In this document: piece after piece, positions 24,037-30,676 of the stretch | Layout of the letters: each line of letters opens with the position of its first letter | Position numbering within the stretch: the stretch's first letter is position 1 | Assembly (NCBI GenBank): GCA_015272325.1 | Contig: JACYLU010000015.1 | Location: 186,001-250,000 of the forward strand | DNA length: 64,000 bases | Source of the DNA: Synechococcales cyanobacterium C42_A2020_086 | Lineage (GTDB): Bacteria; Cyanobacteriota; Cyanobacteriia; Elainellales; Elainellaceae | Direction of reading: 5' to 3' | Made by a program: the position numbers and the translations under genes | Notes under the pieces: generated by a model | What the model was told of the DNA's origin: nothing | Seen by the model: the letters and a program-made list of their open reading frames with translations, nothing else | The model's database searches: none

Positions 24037-24214
24037 TCCTGCTCGTTGATCCTGGTTGAGTCCCTGGCGCTTTTAAAGTCAATCAAGGAAATTAAGCAAT
24101 TGTACTTGCTAATTCCAGCTTAAGCTCCTGCTCGTTGATCCTGGTTGAGTCCCTGGCGCTTTTAAAGTCAATCAAGGAAATTAAGCAATTGTACTTGCTA
24201 ATTCCAGCTTAAGC
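24037..24214 (+). repeat. 89-bp perfect tandem duplication
   Basis: Positions 24037-24125 and 24126-24214 are identical along all 89 bases and directly adjacent. Each copy holds a short hairpin (AGCAA/TTGCT) and, at its right end, the last codon and stop of the upstream histidine kinase. Only the copy nearest the kinase serves as its gene end; the other lies 26 bp before the SRPBCC start. The leader of that gene is therefore doubled. Confidence 0.98.
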
Positions 24215-26329: not shown

Positions 26330-26713
26330 GTGGTGAATCCGTTAATTTCAATATTCCCAAGAGCACCAGCACTGCACCGTGATCCTGCATCGTAATTAGG
26401 AGGTACCCAAGCAGCCGACTGCCTAGGACTTCGTTGGAGTCTCACAGTAGGGAGCACGTTGACATCTACACCACTGCCTTACCATTACACACTTCTACAG
26501 CAAACGTATCCGTGATTTCCTGCCGAGAGCAGAAACATCCCTTTGCCTTTGGTCGGCTAGGGGCGATCTGTCTTGCCAGGTTTTTTGCAATATTTTTTGC
26601 AATGAGAGTAACCATTAGAGTAATACGAGTGTATGCTTCTAACCAATTGATGTTGATGTATTGATGTCGTTCATCTCGTTGCTCGTTGGTTTTTGCCGGG
26701 TATTGACGTCACT
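26330..26713. other. 384-bp intergenic region before the HerA-like gene
   Basis: It contains the divergent promoters of the histidine kinase and the HerA-like gene. A 12-bp tandem duplication occurs at 26581-26604. The rest is AT-richer and has no supported gene. Confidence 0.5.
26581..26604 (+). repeat. 12-bp tandem duplication
   Basis: TTTTTTGCAATA (26581-26592) is followed by TTTTTTGCAATG (26593-26604), differing only at the last base. Confidence 0.85.
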
Positions 26714-28411
26714 ATGGTTTTTGTCTCTTCCCTCTCATCTCCTTATCCTATTGGCACCGTTAAAGGTCCGGGCGAGAACGCCAACCAGTATGTGTTTATT
26801 ACCGCAGACAACCGTCAGGTCAAGATTGGGGAATTTGTTTACTATGAAGTTCACCGCCCCAAGGACCCCTATTTGCCCAACTGTCTGCAAATTCTGGGGA
26901 AAATCTGTGACCGCTGTTTGATCGATCATTTGCCCGATCGAATTTTTGCCGACACAGAAATCAGCCCGGAAGCAATTGCAGCTCTAGTGGGGTTTGTGCA
27001 TCCAAATCCTGAAATCTACGAAGTTACCGTGGAAGTGATTGGCTACTTCCATCCAGCCCTCGGGTTCATGAATCCTCGGCTGACGCCCGATCCCGGCGTT
27101 AAGGTGTATTTAGCCAGCGATGAAAGCCTGAAGCGGGTGCTGAGTAAAAAACAGCCGGGCGAGGTTGGCGCAGCGCATATTGGCTCATTGCTGCTACGAG
27201 AGGCAGGAGCGGTGCCGGTGGCGCTAGACGTCAAGGAGTTGGTGAGCACCCACATGGCGATTCTGGCGGGCACTGGCTCCGGGAAGTCTTACACGGCGGG
27301 AGTTTTAGTTGAGGAACTGCTGCTGCCCCATAACCGGGCGGCGGTGCTGATTTTTGATCCCCATGGTGAATATGGCACCTTGGCGCAAATGCGAGGGCAT
27401 ACCGCCTTCCAAGCGGCTGATGGCTACACGCCCAAGGTGAAGGTGCTTAGCCCTGAGGATGTACGCATCCGTGTTTCCTCGCTGGACTACTACGATATCC
27501 TCACCCTGCTGCCAGAAATGAGCGACCGCCAGCAGTCAATTCTCAACAAAGCCTTTGCGATTCTAAAGCGGCATCAGCGCGGGCAATACCGCTGGGGTGT
27601 GGAAGACCTGATTGCTGCCGTATTTGAAGCCGACCGCACCCAGGATGATGAGGGTAACGAGAAAGTAGGTACATCGGCCCCCGCCTTGGAATGGAAGTTA
27701 GAGCGGCTAGCGCGGTCGCCTTACTTCCACACCATTAACCACCTCGCTCCTAAGGATCTGTTCGAGCCGGGCCAGGTGACGGTGCTGCAAATGAACGAAA
27801 TTAGCCAGGAAGAGCAGCAGGTGATCTGTGCCACAGTGCTGCGGCAGGCCAATCAGGCGCGGATGAACACCCAGAAGGGGCTAATCACCCCCGATGATGA
27901 AAATTACTTGCCCTATCCAGTGTTTATTTTGATTGAAGAAGCCCATCGCTTTGCCCCCGCCCACGAGCCATCGCGCTGCAAGATGATTCTGCGCACCATT
28001 CTCAGCGAAGGGCGCAAGTTTGGGCTGGGGGTGGGTTTGATTACGCAGCGGCCCGGCAAGCTTGACTCGGATGTGCTCTCTCAGTGCATGAGCCAATTCA
28101 TTATGCGGATTGTCAATCCGGTGGATCAAGATAGCCTCAAATATGGCGTCGAGGCGGCTGGGCGCGATTTGCTCAAGGAGTTGCCCGCTCTCACCAAAGG
28201 GCAGGTGATTATTGCGGGTGCTTGCGTCAACACGCCCGTGCTGTGTCAGGTGCGAAAGCGAATTACGGATCACGGCGGCGAAACGCTGGATGCGCCCGCT
28301 CTTTGGCAAACCTATTTCCAGGCGCATCAGGTTGCCAGCCGCCAGATCGAGCAGTCGCCGGTTGCCAGCCGCCCTCGTGCCAACACTGTGCGAGGGGTCA
28401 GCATTGAGTAA
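26714..28411 (+). CDS. HerA-like helicase/translocase ATPase (DUF87)
   Basis: From ATG 26714 the product is 565 residues. An N-terminal HAS-barrel-like domain (about 1-130) leads into a FtsK/HerA RecA-like core. Walker A is LAGTGSGKSYTAGVLVEELL near residue 186, followed by FDPHGEYG. Walker B is PVFILIEEAHRFAP near 404, and LSEGRKFGLGVGLITQRP carries the sensor region. HerA proteins form hexameric DNA translocases, often paired with the NurA nuclease in DNA-end resection. No nurA is nearby. The C-terminus repeats VASR twice. TTG 26693 is an alternative start. Confidence 0.9.
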   Translation: MVFVSSLSSPYPIGTVKGPGENANQYVFITADNRQVKIGEFVYYEVHRPKDPYLPNCLQILGKICDRCLIDHLPDRIFADTEISPEAIAALVGFVHPNPEIYEVTVEVIGYFHPALGFMNPRLTPDPGVKVYLASDESLKRVLSKKQPGEVGAAHIGSLLLREAGAVPVALDVKELVSTHMAILAGTGSGKSYTAGVLVEELLLPHNRAAVLIFDPHGEYGTLAQMRGHTAFQAADGYTPKVKVLSPEDVRIRVSSLDYYDILTLLPEMSDRQQSILNKAFAILKRHQRGQYRWGVEDLIAAVFEADRTQDDEGNEKVGTSAPALEWKLERLARSPYFHTINHLAPKDLFEPGQVTVLQMNEISQEEQQVICATVLRQANQARMNTQKGLITPDDENYLPYPVFILIEEAHRFAPAHEPSRCKMILRTILSEGRKFGLGVGLITQRPGKLDSDVLSQCMSQFIMRIVNPVDQDSLKYGVEAAGRDLLKELPALTKGQVIIAGACVNTPVLCQVRKRITDHGGETLDAPALWQTYFQAHQVASRQIEQSPVASRPRANTVRGVSIE

Positions 28412-28513: not shown

Positions 28514-28927
28514 ATGAGTAATCCCCTCCGCAGTCTCAAGCGTTTACCTTGGACGCCCCTGTTGCTGAATGCCATCCTCACGGTGTTCTGGATCTTTGTG
28601 ATCGAATTTCTGCTCTGGCTTGGGTTGATGTATGTGCCTCTAGTCAGAGATGTAATCGGGATCCTATATGCGCCACCGCTAAACATTCTGATGGAGTTGG
28701 CGGTCGCGATTGGTGTGGGTGCCCTTGCTGTCTATCTCCTTGAAATTGTCCACTCGCAGGTTCTCATCAATGCAGGAACGCTGTGGGCCCTATTGCTGTG
28801 CTTAATGCTGGTTATGATCATCAAAGCGCTGCTGCCGATACCGGCACTGCTGGTGAGGCCAGGCACCACGCTCCTCGTAGGTATGATGGTGGGGATTTTT
28901 TTGAAGGGCAAACCGTACTGGCGTTGA
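28514..28927 (+). CDS. Small membrane protein, 137 aa
   Basis: Not recognised as a named family. The product has a short basic N-terminus (MSNPLRSLKRLPW) and about four hydrophobic segments: LLLNAILTVFWIFVIEFLLWLGLMYV, ILMELAVAIGVGALAVYLLEIV, AGTLWALLLCLMLVMIIKALL and TTLLVGMMVGIFL. It is 102 bp downstream of the HerA-like gene on the same strand. The start ATG 28514 is chosen because the upstream part of the frame has no membrane or domain character. Confidence 0.65.
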   Translation: MSNPLRSLKRLPWTPLLLNAILTVFWIFVIEFLLWLGLMYVPLVRDVIGILYAPPLNILMELAVAIGVGALAVYLLEIVHSQVLINAGTLWALLLCLMLVMIIKALLPIPALLVRPGTTLLVGMMVGIFLKGKPYWR

Positions 28928-28958: not shown

Positions 28959-29048
28959 CTACTCGGGCTGAGCAAGCACCGTAACGAAGACTTTGTAGAC
29001 CAAGGCATAGCCAGCAAACAATACGAGTCCTGCGACGATAACTGGCAT
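28959..29048 (-). CDS. Single-pass membrane microprotein, 29 aa
   Basis: A short frame on the minus strand encodes 29 residues, starting MPVIVAGLVLFAGYALVYKV and ending TVLAQPE. A strong Shine-Dalgarno (AAGGAG) lies 9 nt before the ATG. The product is one transmembrane helix with a short C-terminal tail, the size class of photosystem, cytochrome b6f or NDH-1 small subunits. I could not match it to PsbX, PsbM, PsaM, PetL, PetM, PetN or Ycf12 from memory, so no name is given. It stands alone between a membrane-protein gene and a hybrid kinase. Confidence 0.7.
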   Translation of the reverse strand: MPVIVAGLVLFAGYALVYKVFVTVLAQPE

Positions 29049-29206
29049 AATTTTTCTCCTTCTGCAGGGTACGGATAGATTGAAAGGATTGGAGAACGTT
29101 CACATGTTCTACCTTACTTCCTAGGCTAGATGACCCTTGAAAATAGCGCATCACCCAAATGGGGAATTTTCATCTACCTGAAGGGTTAGGTGGCAGCTCA
29201 ATGCGT

Positions 29207-30676
29207 TTACTCGTTGAAGGCTGATACGGATTGAATGGGCAGAAACACGGTGAAGGTTGTCCGTCCCGGAACGCTCGCAACCTCAATGTGCCCGGCATGT
29301 TTCTCAATAATTTGGTTGACAATACTAAGGCCCAAGCCGCTGCCTTCCCCTTTTGGCTTGGTTGTGAAAAAAGGCTCAAAGATCCTGGACTGCAATTCGG
29401 GGGGAATGCCTTTGCCGCTATCGGTAATGGCGACACAGATCTGCTCTGGATCGGGCTGCTGAACAGTGATGCTGATCTGACCTTTGTATTCCATGGCTTG
29501 CAAGGCGTTGTGCAGCAGATTGGACCAGACCTGATTTAATTCATCAGGGAAAGCCCAGATCAGTGGGACCGGGTGATAGTTGCGGATGATCTCAACACGC
29601 TGACGGCACTGGTCATAGTACAGCGCTAAGGCTGTTTCAATGCTTTCTACCACATCGGTTTCCGTCTTTAGTCCACTGGCATCGTGGTGGATGTAGCGGG
29701 TCAAGGCCAGGACAATACGAGCAGCGCGATCGCTTGCGGTCAAGATTGTATGGGCGCTTTTGTGCAAACTCGCGAGCTGATAGGCGGCATTGAGCACGCG
29801 CTGGCTGGTTTGGTCGTACAGTAGCGGCAGTAGCGGGTCCAGGTCATCATAAATCGCCATATCGACCAAGGTATCTGCCACATGTTCACAGTGGGGAATA
29901 TCATGAACTGCCAACTGCTGTACCAAGGAACGACGCAACTGCCGCTTCTCTCGGCTCGAGAGACTAGGGAACTTAGCCATCCCCAGACGGGCACGTTGCA
30001 GCAATCGCAAAAAGAGCTGCCAGTGGTGCGGCGGAATCGCTTCTAGCACCTGCGGCAGTTGCTCTAGGGTTTGATGCAACACCCCATGAATATTTTTGGC
30101 TGAAGACCGAATAGCCCCTAGAGGCGTATTAATTTCGTGGGCAACATTGGCGATCAATTGTCCTAGGGCCGCCATTTTTTCGGCCTGAATCAGCTGAGCT
30201 TGCGTACTTTTGAGCTGATGTAGCGTTTCGGTCAGATCGTGGTTCTTTTGCTTGAGGGTGTTTTGGAGGGCACAGATCGTTAGATGTGTTTTAATTCGAA
30301 CAACAGCTTCTTCGATTTGAAAGGGTTTAGTGATGTAATCGACCCCACCCACTGAGAAAGCTTTGACTTTATCAAAAACATCGCTCCAGGCGCTCAAGAA
30401 AATAATCGGAATGGCGCTAGTGCGTTCATCGGCTTTGAAACGGCGGCAGACCTCGTAGCCGTCCATCTCTGGCATATTGATATCCAGCAAGATCAGATCG
30501 GGAGGCAGGGCCTGAGCCGCTGCGAGAGCCAGTCTGCCATTGGGAGCAGCTCGCACCTTATAGCCTTGGTCCGACAAGATACCGACCAACAGCCGCAGGC
30601 TATCAGGGGTATCATCCACCACCAAGATATTAAATTGTGGCTGATCGTGTGGCTGATCCGAAATCATTGAGACCAA
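29207..30676 (-). CDS. Response regulator-histidine kinase hybrid
   Basis: A 489-residue soluble protein with an N-terminal receiver domain (phospho-acceptor aspartate near residue 62 in DLILLDINMPEMDG) fused to a histidine kinase. The HisKA histidine is near 180 in LIANVAHEINTPLGAIRSSAKNI. The HATPase domain has NLLHNALQAMEYKG and GEGSGLGLSIVNQIIEKHAGHIEV. The REC-first order is common in cyanobacteria and suggests a mid-chain component. M4 (30667) is an alternative start. It has no adjacent partner. Confidence 0.92.
   Translation of the reverse strand: MVSMISDQPHDQPQFNILVVDDTPDSLRLLVGILSDQGYKVRAAPNGRLALAAAQALPPDLILLDINMPEMDGYEVCRRFKADERTSAIPIIFLSAWSDVFDKVKAFSVGGVDYITKPFQIEEAVVRIKTHLTICALQNTLKQKNHDLTETLHQLKSTQAQLIQAEKMAALGQLIANVAHEINTPLGAIRSSAKNIHGVLHQTLEQLPQVLEAIPPHHWQLFLRLLQRARLGMAKFPSLSSREKRQLRRSLVQQLAVHDIPHCEHVADTLVDMAIYDDLDPLLPLLYDQTSQRVLNAAYQLASLHKSAHTILTASDRAARIVLALTRYIHHDASGLKTETDVVESIETALALYYDQCRQRVEIIRNYHPVPLIWAFPDELNQVWSNLLHNALQAMEYKGQISITVQQPDPEQICVAITDSGKGIPPELQSRIFEPFFTTKPKGEGSGLGLSIVNQIIEKHAGHIEVASVPGRTTFTVFLPIQSVSAFNE

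Follow-up and report, generated by a model that had tools for sequence, protein, structure and literature searches.

KdpF is a single-helix peptide with an accessory or regulatory role. Such a role is likewise ascribed to AcrZ (PMC7267776), MgrB (PMC10576120), and CydX (PMC4325964) in the available sections of the corresponding reports. The single-helix microproteins of cyanobacteria have been little catalogued. One studied case is SliP4, also called HliR1, a 37-residue protein from Synechocystis with one predicted transmembrane region that, according to the accessible part of PMC12850537, links NDH-1 with PSI or PSII; it alters photosynthetic electron flow. The accessible part of a second paper reports no homologues of it beyond Synechocystis (PMC5126843). 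That same portion describes Norf4, a 31-residue protein of unknown function with a single predicted transmembrane segment that occurs in many cyanobacteria.

The gene considered here lies within a 64 kb stretch of DNA, referred to as the window, and occupies positions 28959..29048 of the minus strand. It consists of 29 codons and a stop (MPVIVAGLVLFAGYALVYKVFVTVLAQPE), with the ATG at 29048-29046 and the TAG stop at 28961-28959; the plus-strand reading of the same interval does not correspond to the open reading frame. A first-pass annotation had placed a 29-residue membrane microprotein at exactly these positions, and this is confirmed, the strand having been left unstated. The Shine-Dalgarno sequence AAGGAG that it reported is indeed present at 29061-29056 on the minus strand, 7 nt 5' of the ATG, and the transmembrane helix is likewise borne out, with a best 19-residue Kyte-Doolittle window of 2.14 and a single helix predicted. 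Tyr 14 is the invariant residue of the family described below, and Lys 19 falls late in the hydrophobic stretch.

A scan of the 64 kb for open reading frames with an ATG start, a strong Shine-Dalgarno sequence, a length of 20-40 residues, and a strong transmembrane stretch returned this frame and no other. When the same scan was applied to dinucleotide-shuffled windows, three of 40 contained at least one comparable frame (mean 0.075), and thus the frame by itself may be a chance occurrence at approximately the 7% level. A DNA pattern designed from the family (Shine-Dalgarno sequence, ATG, and core motif) matched once in the window and in none of 100 shuffles. The question of chance is settled by the conservation of the family.

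Searching 60 genomes with the 29-residue sequence gave matches in ten of them, the only strong one being in its own genome. Several of the weak matches proved to be stand-alone ATG frames with the same core and their own Shine-Dalgarno sequences, and profiles built from these uncovered more. After the loci were read, 28 genes from 26 cyanobacterial genomes were accepted, with lengths of 23-35 residues and a single hydrophobic helix. The carriers comprise 15 of the 36 genomes from the window's order, all belonging to a single taxon family (f1), together with 11 from a second family (f16, which contributes 42 genomes to the table of the class-wide element scan described below). We take f1 to be the Elainellaceae and f16 the Leptolyngbyaceae of GTDB. 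Within the class samples, 388 genomes in all, f16 is the only further family with verified copies. The member count is a lower bound, given that some weak matches outside of f1 and f16 are unread (for example L028, G251, G092, G041, G102, G384, and G359). Matches at E ≤ 1 in three order genomes were not accepted, the frames in G001 and G009 having been read and that in G023 being unread. Other weak matches (L005, L006, L024, L030, L027, L032, and L065) were dropped because they lie in other frames. Two genomes, G030 and G206, carry the microprotein genes as tandem pairs.

When the 28 sequences are aligned on their core, the tyrosine is present in every one of them and is embedded in a patch of small residues that most often reads [GS]-Y-[AG]. 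The preceding residue is glycine or serine in 22 of the 28, the following residue is alanine, glycine, or leucine in all 28, and the position seven residues beyond the tyrosine is invariably phenylalanine or valine. No member has a lysine or arginine before the tyrosine, whereas 27 of the 28 have one after it. On the basis of the positive-inside rule, this distribution suggests a cytoplasmic C-terminus. A Shine-Dalgarno-like sequence precedes 26 of the 28 genes, the exceptions being those in G148 and G212. In all seven comparisons between close relatives, four of which are independent pairs, pN is lower than pS, with few sites contributing per pair; the values for the independent pairs are 0.10/0.40, 0.12/0.22, 0.04/0.52, and 0.13/0.45. 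The microprotein belongs to a real protein family under purifying selection. The first-pass annotation had called for a search for conserved cyanobacterial homologues and had counted their absence among the grounds for dismissing the gene; such homologues exist, and that objection fails. The frequency of comparable frames in shuffled DNA is the one point in favor of a chance frame, and it is contradicted by the conservation of the family, the Shine-Dalgarno sequences, the consistently lower pN, and the shared gene order described below, so that the probability of such a frame is negligible.

The distribution was also examined on a larger scale with the pattern of Shine-Dalgarno sequence, ATG, and core. 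Across 84,980 species, each represented by one genome, 27 stretches matched. Eleven of these encode a stand-alone peptide, without exception from cyanobacteria; the carriers include Stenomitos frigidus ULC18, Tildeniella nuda, Leptolyngbya sp. FACHB-8, Microcoleus sp. FACHB-1515, and filamentous cyanobacterium LEGE 07170. NCBI places Stenomitos in the Leptolyngbyaceae and Tildeniella in the Oculatellaceae. The other 16 stretches encode other frames. One of them, a 60-residue frame from a Clostridia metagenome-assembled genome (L073), looks core-like by eye; it was counted as a chance match because the pattern itself selects for the core and because the frame continues to 60 residues.

Profile searches with 26 members provided no credible relative. 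Pfam gave six unrelated families, each hit by one member with a best E of 0.065, NCBIfam gave none, and no PDB chain was matched at E ≤ 10. Specifically, no Pet, Psb, Psa, or Ndh small-subunit profile or solved chain was matched in the three collections, and neither was a KdpF profile or a KdpFABC chain; no kdp operon surrounds the window gene. KdpF is presumably included in the profile libraries that were searched. The first-pass annotation had regarded the gene as easily missed and as having no match among the known small photosynthetic subunits, and the curated families and solved chains support that view. A literature search, conducted mostly outside of the subscription journals, found no description of the microprotein family or of its upstream element.

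These results bear on the possibility that the peptide is a constitutive structural subunit of PSI, PSII, cytochrome b6f, or NDH-1, namely the counterpart of PetN, PsbM, or PsaM in this lineage. Its size and topology would fit, as would the restriction of the stand-alone matches in the 84,980-species scan to cyanobacteria. The verified copies, however, are confined to 15 of the 36 order genomes and one other family within the class samples, a patchy presence that argues against a core, or general, photosynthetic subunit, and the profile and structure collections that hold the known small subunits gave no match. We consider a structural subunit unlikely, and the control region discussed below points in the same direction. 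The first-pass annotation had proposed, more broadly, that the peptide could be a new small subunit of a membrane complex; it may be one, of a kind other than a general photosynthetic subunit.

Downstream of the microprotein gene, on the plus strand at 28514..28927, lies a convergent gene for a hydrophobic protein of 137 residues that has no family match. In G030, G033, and G004, homologues of this protein likewise sit convergent to the microprotein gene, and thus the arrangement is conserved in four genomes; the window protein shares 49.6-51.1% identity with these three (E ≤ 2.1e-43). In G030, G007, G017, and G006, the microprotein gene is preceded by a divergent gene that, judging from its sequence, we take to be kinase-like. 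Both arrangements occur together in G030, which links them. For part of the set, the shared gene order backs an orthologous relationship among the microprotein genes despite their low identity. On the upstream side in the window, a gene encoding a response-regulator receiver and a histidine kinase (29207..30676, minus strand) ends 158 nt before the microprotein ATG; it is viewed as context and probably lies outside of the microprotein unit.

The window microprotein gene stands alone, the next gene being convergent. More generally, the next downstream frame of at least 100 residues is on the opposite strand for 21 of the 28 members, the window gene included, on the same strand for six, and out of reach for one. 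In G212 the same-strand frame encodes 251 residues and begins only 11 nt from the microprotein gene. Following the microprotein gene in G206 and G148 (L055 and L059) are same-strand frames for hydrophobic proteins of 70-72 residues with no family match. Given the same-strand frames in G148, G206, and G212, the stand-alone status may not hold everywhere. These few cases, together with the shortness of the frame and a leader of approximately 80-220 nt ahead of it, are what would be expected of a leader peptide or upstream frame that regulates a following gene, or of the protein-coding portion of a small RNA with two functions. Such a role is very unlikely given the prevailing opposite-strand arrangement, the purifying selection at the amino-acid level, and the lack of an Rfam match at the loci searched.

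Two other features of the window were observed. Positions 24037-24214 contain a perfect 89-bp tandem duplication in two identical copies on the 5' side of a gene on the minus strand, such that the first 16 codons of that gene are present twice; it either arose recently or reflects the assembly. Positions 26693-28411 encode a HerA/DUF87-type ATPase of 572 residues whose scores fall well short of those that NCBIfam requires for its named HerA families.

An unsupervised motif search was conducted on the 300 nt upstream of 20 of the 28 members, a hand-chosen non-redundant set with one representative per close group. It returned CCCCnnnnGGGTGATGC with a score of 118-121, as compared to a mean of 61.3 (sd 3.5, maximum 68.9) for 60 dinucleotide-shuffled sets, and the motif was unchanged when the last 30 nt before the ATG were omitted. 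In the window, the element defined by this motif and by the corresponding matrix is TTCCCCATTTGGGTGATGC, a G-tract pseudopalindrome followed by GATGC at 29148..29166 on the minus strand; the 17-nt matrix match begins 117 nt before the ATG. Directly after it is a possible extended -10 sequence, TGC GCTATT (29142..29150, minus strand), with a weak hexamer. Its position was set by analogy with the TG[TC]TAnnCT of the ferrochelatase-paralogue promoters described below, in which the -10-like hexamer is stronger than in the microprotein promoters; a simple promoter scan found no site in this region of the window.

The pattern CCCNNNNNGGGKGATG occurs five times in the window's genome versus seven times for the reversed control, and the element is therefore not a genomic repeat. 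Three of the four other matches lie inside long coding frames, and the fourth is upstream of a ferrochelatase-like gene. A small upstream open reading frame beginning at the ATG inside GGGTGATG was rejected because that ATG is lost in several members (GGACTG in G264, GGGTGTGG in G014, and GGGTAAG in G017). A MerR-like geometry of the element was considered from its spacing only and was set aside. A LexA-like sequence, acatgttcta, is seen upstream of some members, and four relatives from one genus group (L080, L060, L070, and L095) display a palindrome-rich stretch of the type TAGTACTAC...GTAGTAG approximately 200 nt upstream of the microprotein gene.

The element was then sought elsewhere. In 16 chosen genomes CCCNNNNNGGGKGATGC matched 26 times versus 13 for the control, and in the 36 order genomes CCCCNNNNGGGGGATGC matched ten times versus four. 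One kind of ferrochelatase-like gene follows the element in G006, G013, G030, and G009, and in the window's genome by a looser pattern. The strictest pattern, CCCCNNNNGGGGGATGCT, showed no excess when scanned class-wide over 376 genomes (17 matches versus 18 for the control), and that scan is informative only because eight of the 17 matches precede one gene: they are situated 51-148 nt upstream of the ferrochelatase paralogue in four taxon families (f1, f8, f26, and f28). One of the 17 is upstream of a microprotein gene. The paralogue scores 143 bits against the Pfam Ferrochelatase family and 84.6 against NCBIfam hemH, which is under the cut-off of 124.6. It is found in 52 of 60 genomes, and the version in the window's genome has a histidine-rich tail.

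Thirty ferrochelatase-paralogue loci were fetched, of which 27 could be parsed, and at 19 of these the element is followed by the extended -10-like sequence [TC]TAnn[CT]. Written out in full, the element in these promoters reads TCCCC-N4-GGGGATG[TC]TAnnCT (L101, L136, L137, L142, L146, L149, L156, L162, L163, and L165-L194). An independent matrix, built solely from the 19 ferrochelatase-paralogue sites, was applied to the sequences upstream of the 20 microprotein genes. The best scores summed to 162.8, whereas 300 shuffles gave an average of -19.8 (sd 16.7) and a maximum of 25.3. Individually, 13 of the 20 genes carry a site at p ≤ 0.05, the window site scoring 17.0 bits (p = 0.0033); the matrix found no significant element in the other seven (G004, G017, G021, G028, G212, G284, and G303). 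The microprotein genes and the widespread ferrochelatase paralogue have an upstream element in common. It points to a peptide with an accessory or regulatory role that is expressed conditionally, rather than to a general photosynthetic subunit, and so counts further against the structural reading given above. The same element is located 94-95 nt upstream of genes for a cyanobacterial-type glutamate-cysteine ligase (gshA) in G022 and G035 (L143 and L145), which belong to one genus.

With respect to the factor that might bind the element, autoregulation is common in such systems, albeit not obligatory. The accessible part of PMC3902906 describes the type 2 operators of CsoR as G-tract pseudopalindromes with the consensus ATATACCCCTNAGGGGTATAT, and InrS, a nickel sensor of cyanobacteria, is a member of the CsoR/RcnR family according to the available portion of PMC4235346. 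Several of the microprotein sites similarly read TACCC(C)-N-GGG. By eye, the TAC/GTA dyad given as a requirement in the available sections of PMC3902906 seems not to be kept on its right-hand side: some sites have the left TAC (for example G003, G007, G010, and G018), and the window site lacks the right-hand GTA. The ferrochelatase-paralogue sites, which are mostly TCCCC..GGGGATG, also differ from CsoR operators. Of the 36 order genomes, 33 carry a CsoR/RcnR-family gene, among them the window's own, in which the encoded protein has a histidine-rich N-terminus. A scan of 30 CsoR/RcnR-family loci, run without a shuffle control, revealed no consistent site, the best in the window's genome being 4.4 bits. 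Control of the element by a metal sensor of the CsoR/RcnR type is thus speculative, a lead that the scan of these loci did not support.

Our preferred reading is that the microprotein functions as a separately regulated, lineage-specific, conditional accessory helix that is co-switched with the ferrochelatase paralogue and docks on a larger membrane protein. We assign it a probability of roughly 0.55. The promoter would be of the extended -10 type, with the element as an operator covering its -35 region; a transcription factor acting there would switch the microprotein gene and the ferrochelatase paralogue together, and the inducing signal may be a metal, a tetrapyrrole, or a redox change. By the positive-inside rule, the N-terminus of the inserted peptide would face outward, and the short tail, which is often basic, would lie in the cytoplasm. 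The face formed by the tyrosine and the small residues would then dock on a larger membrane protein or complex, at one of its transmembrane helices, and stabilize or tune that partner, as reported for SliP4, AcrZ, MgrB, or CydX. The proposed regulation, topology, docking, and partner are drawn from the anatomy of the family and from the microproteins already studied, and the docking step in particular is argued by analogy.

The same regulated-looking promoter could belong instead to a peptide that acts on the membrane itself, for instance a type I toxin or a TisB-like peptide that depolarizes the membrane under stress, and the single short hydrophobic helix, the patchy distribution, and the two tandem pairs would be in keeping with it. 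The long-term constraint on the tyrosine/small-residue face is better suited to a protein partner, and no Rfam family, antitoxin RNAs included, was found at the searched loci. Accordingly, we view a membrane-active peptide as quite unlikely.

A broader version of the accessory-helix reading is put forward tentatively, as a possibility that we regard as doubtful. The microprotein might be the membrane effector of a cyanobacterial regulon in which a factor acting on (A)TCCCC-N4-GGGGAT controls both the ferrochelatase paralogue and, in two lineages, the peptide, which in turn tunes a membrane complex. If this were so, the factor would bind just upstream of the extended -10 sequence in a regulon that is itself undescribed so far, and the peptide would tune a metal transporter, a tetrapyrrole enzyme, or a photosystem assembly factor when the metal or porphyrin supply is disturbed. 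Control by heme or metal would thereby reach the membrane via a helix of 29 residues. What is new is a microprotein family defined by an invariant tyrosine. The element that it has in common with the ferrochelatase paralogue offers a handle on its control, which is unusual for so small a gene, and renders both the signal and the factor directly testable.

How does this family compare with the systems described at the outset? In contrast to KdpF, AcrZ, MgrB, and CydX, the microprotein has no profile match in Pfam, NCBIfam, or the PDB, and no kdp, acr, or cyd gene adjoins it. It shares with these four peptides its size class and, by analogy, helix docking on a membrane protein as the likely mode of action. 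Norf4 is similarly very short with a single predicted transmembrane segment. As compared by description, Norf4 is extremely conserved and overlaps gap1 in antisense, according to the accessible part of PMC5126843, whereas the window family is patchy and divergent; the window gene overlaps no frame of annotated length. SliP4, again compared by description, is under the control of RpaB and high light and lies upstream of sodB, whereas the window family carries another element. Like SliP4, the microprotein is a cyanobacterial single-helix protein, long overlooked, lineage-specific, and, as suggested here from its upstream element, regulated. It is best placed among the lineage-specific single-helix microproteins of cyanobacteria, and the regulatory element shared with a ferrochelatase paralogue is the unexpected part.
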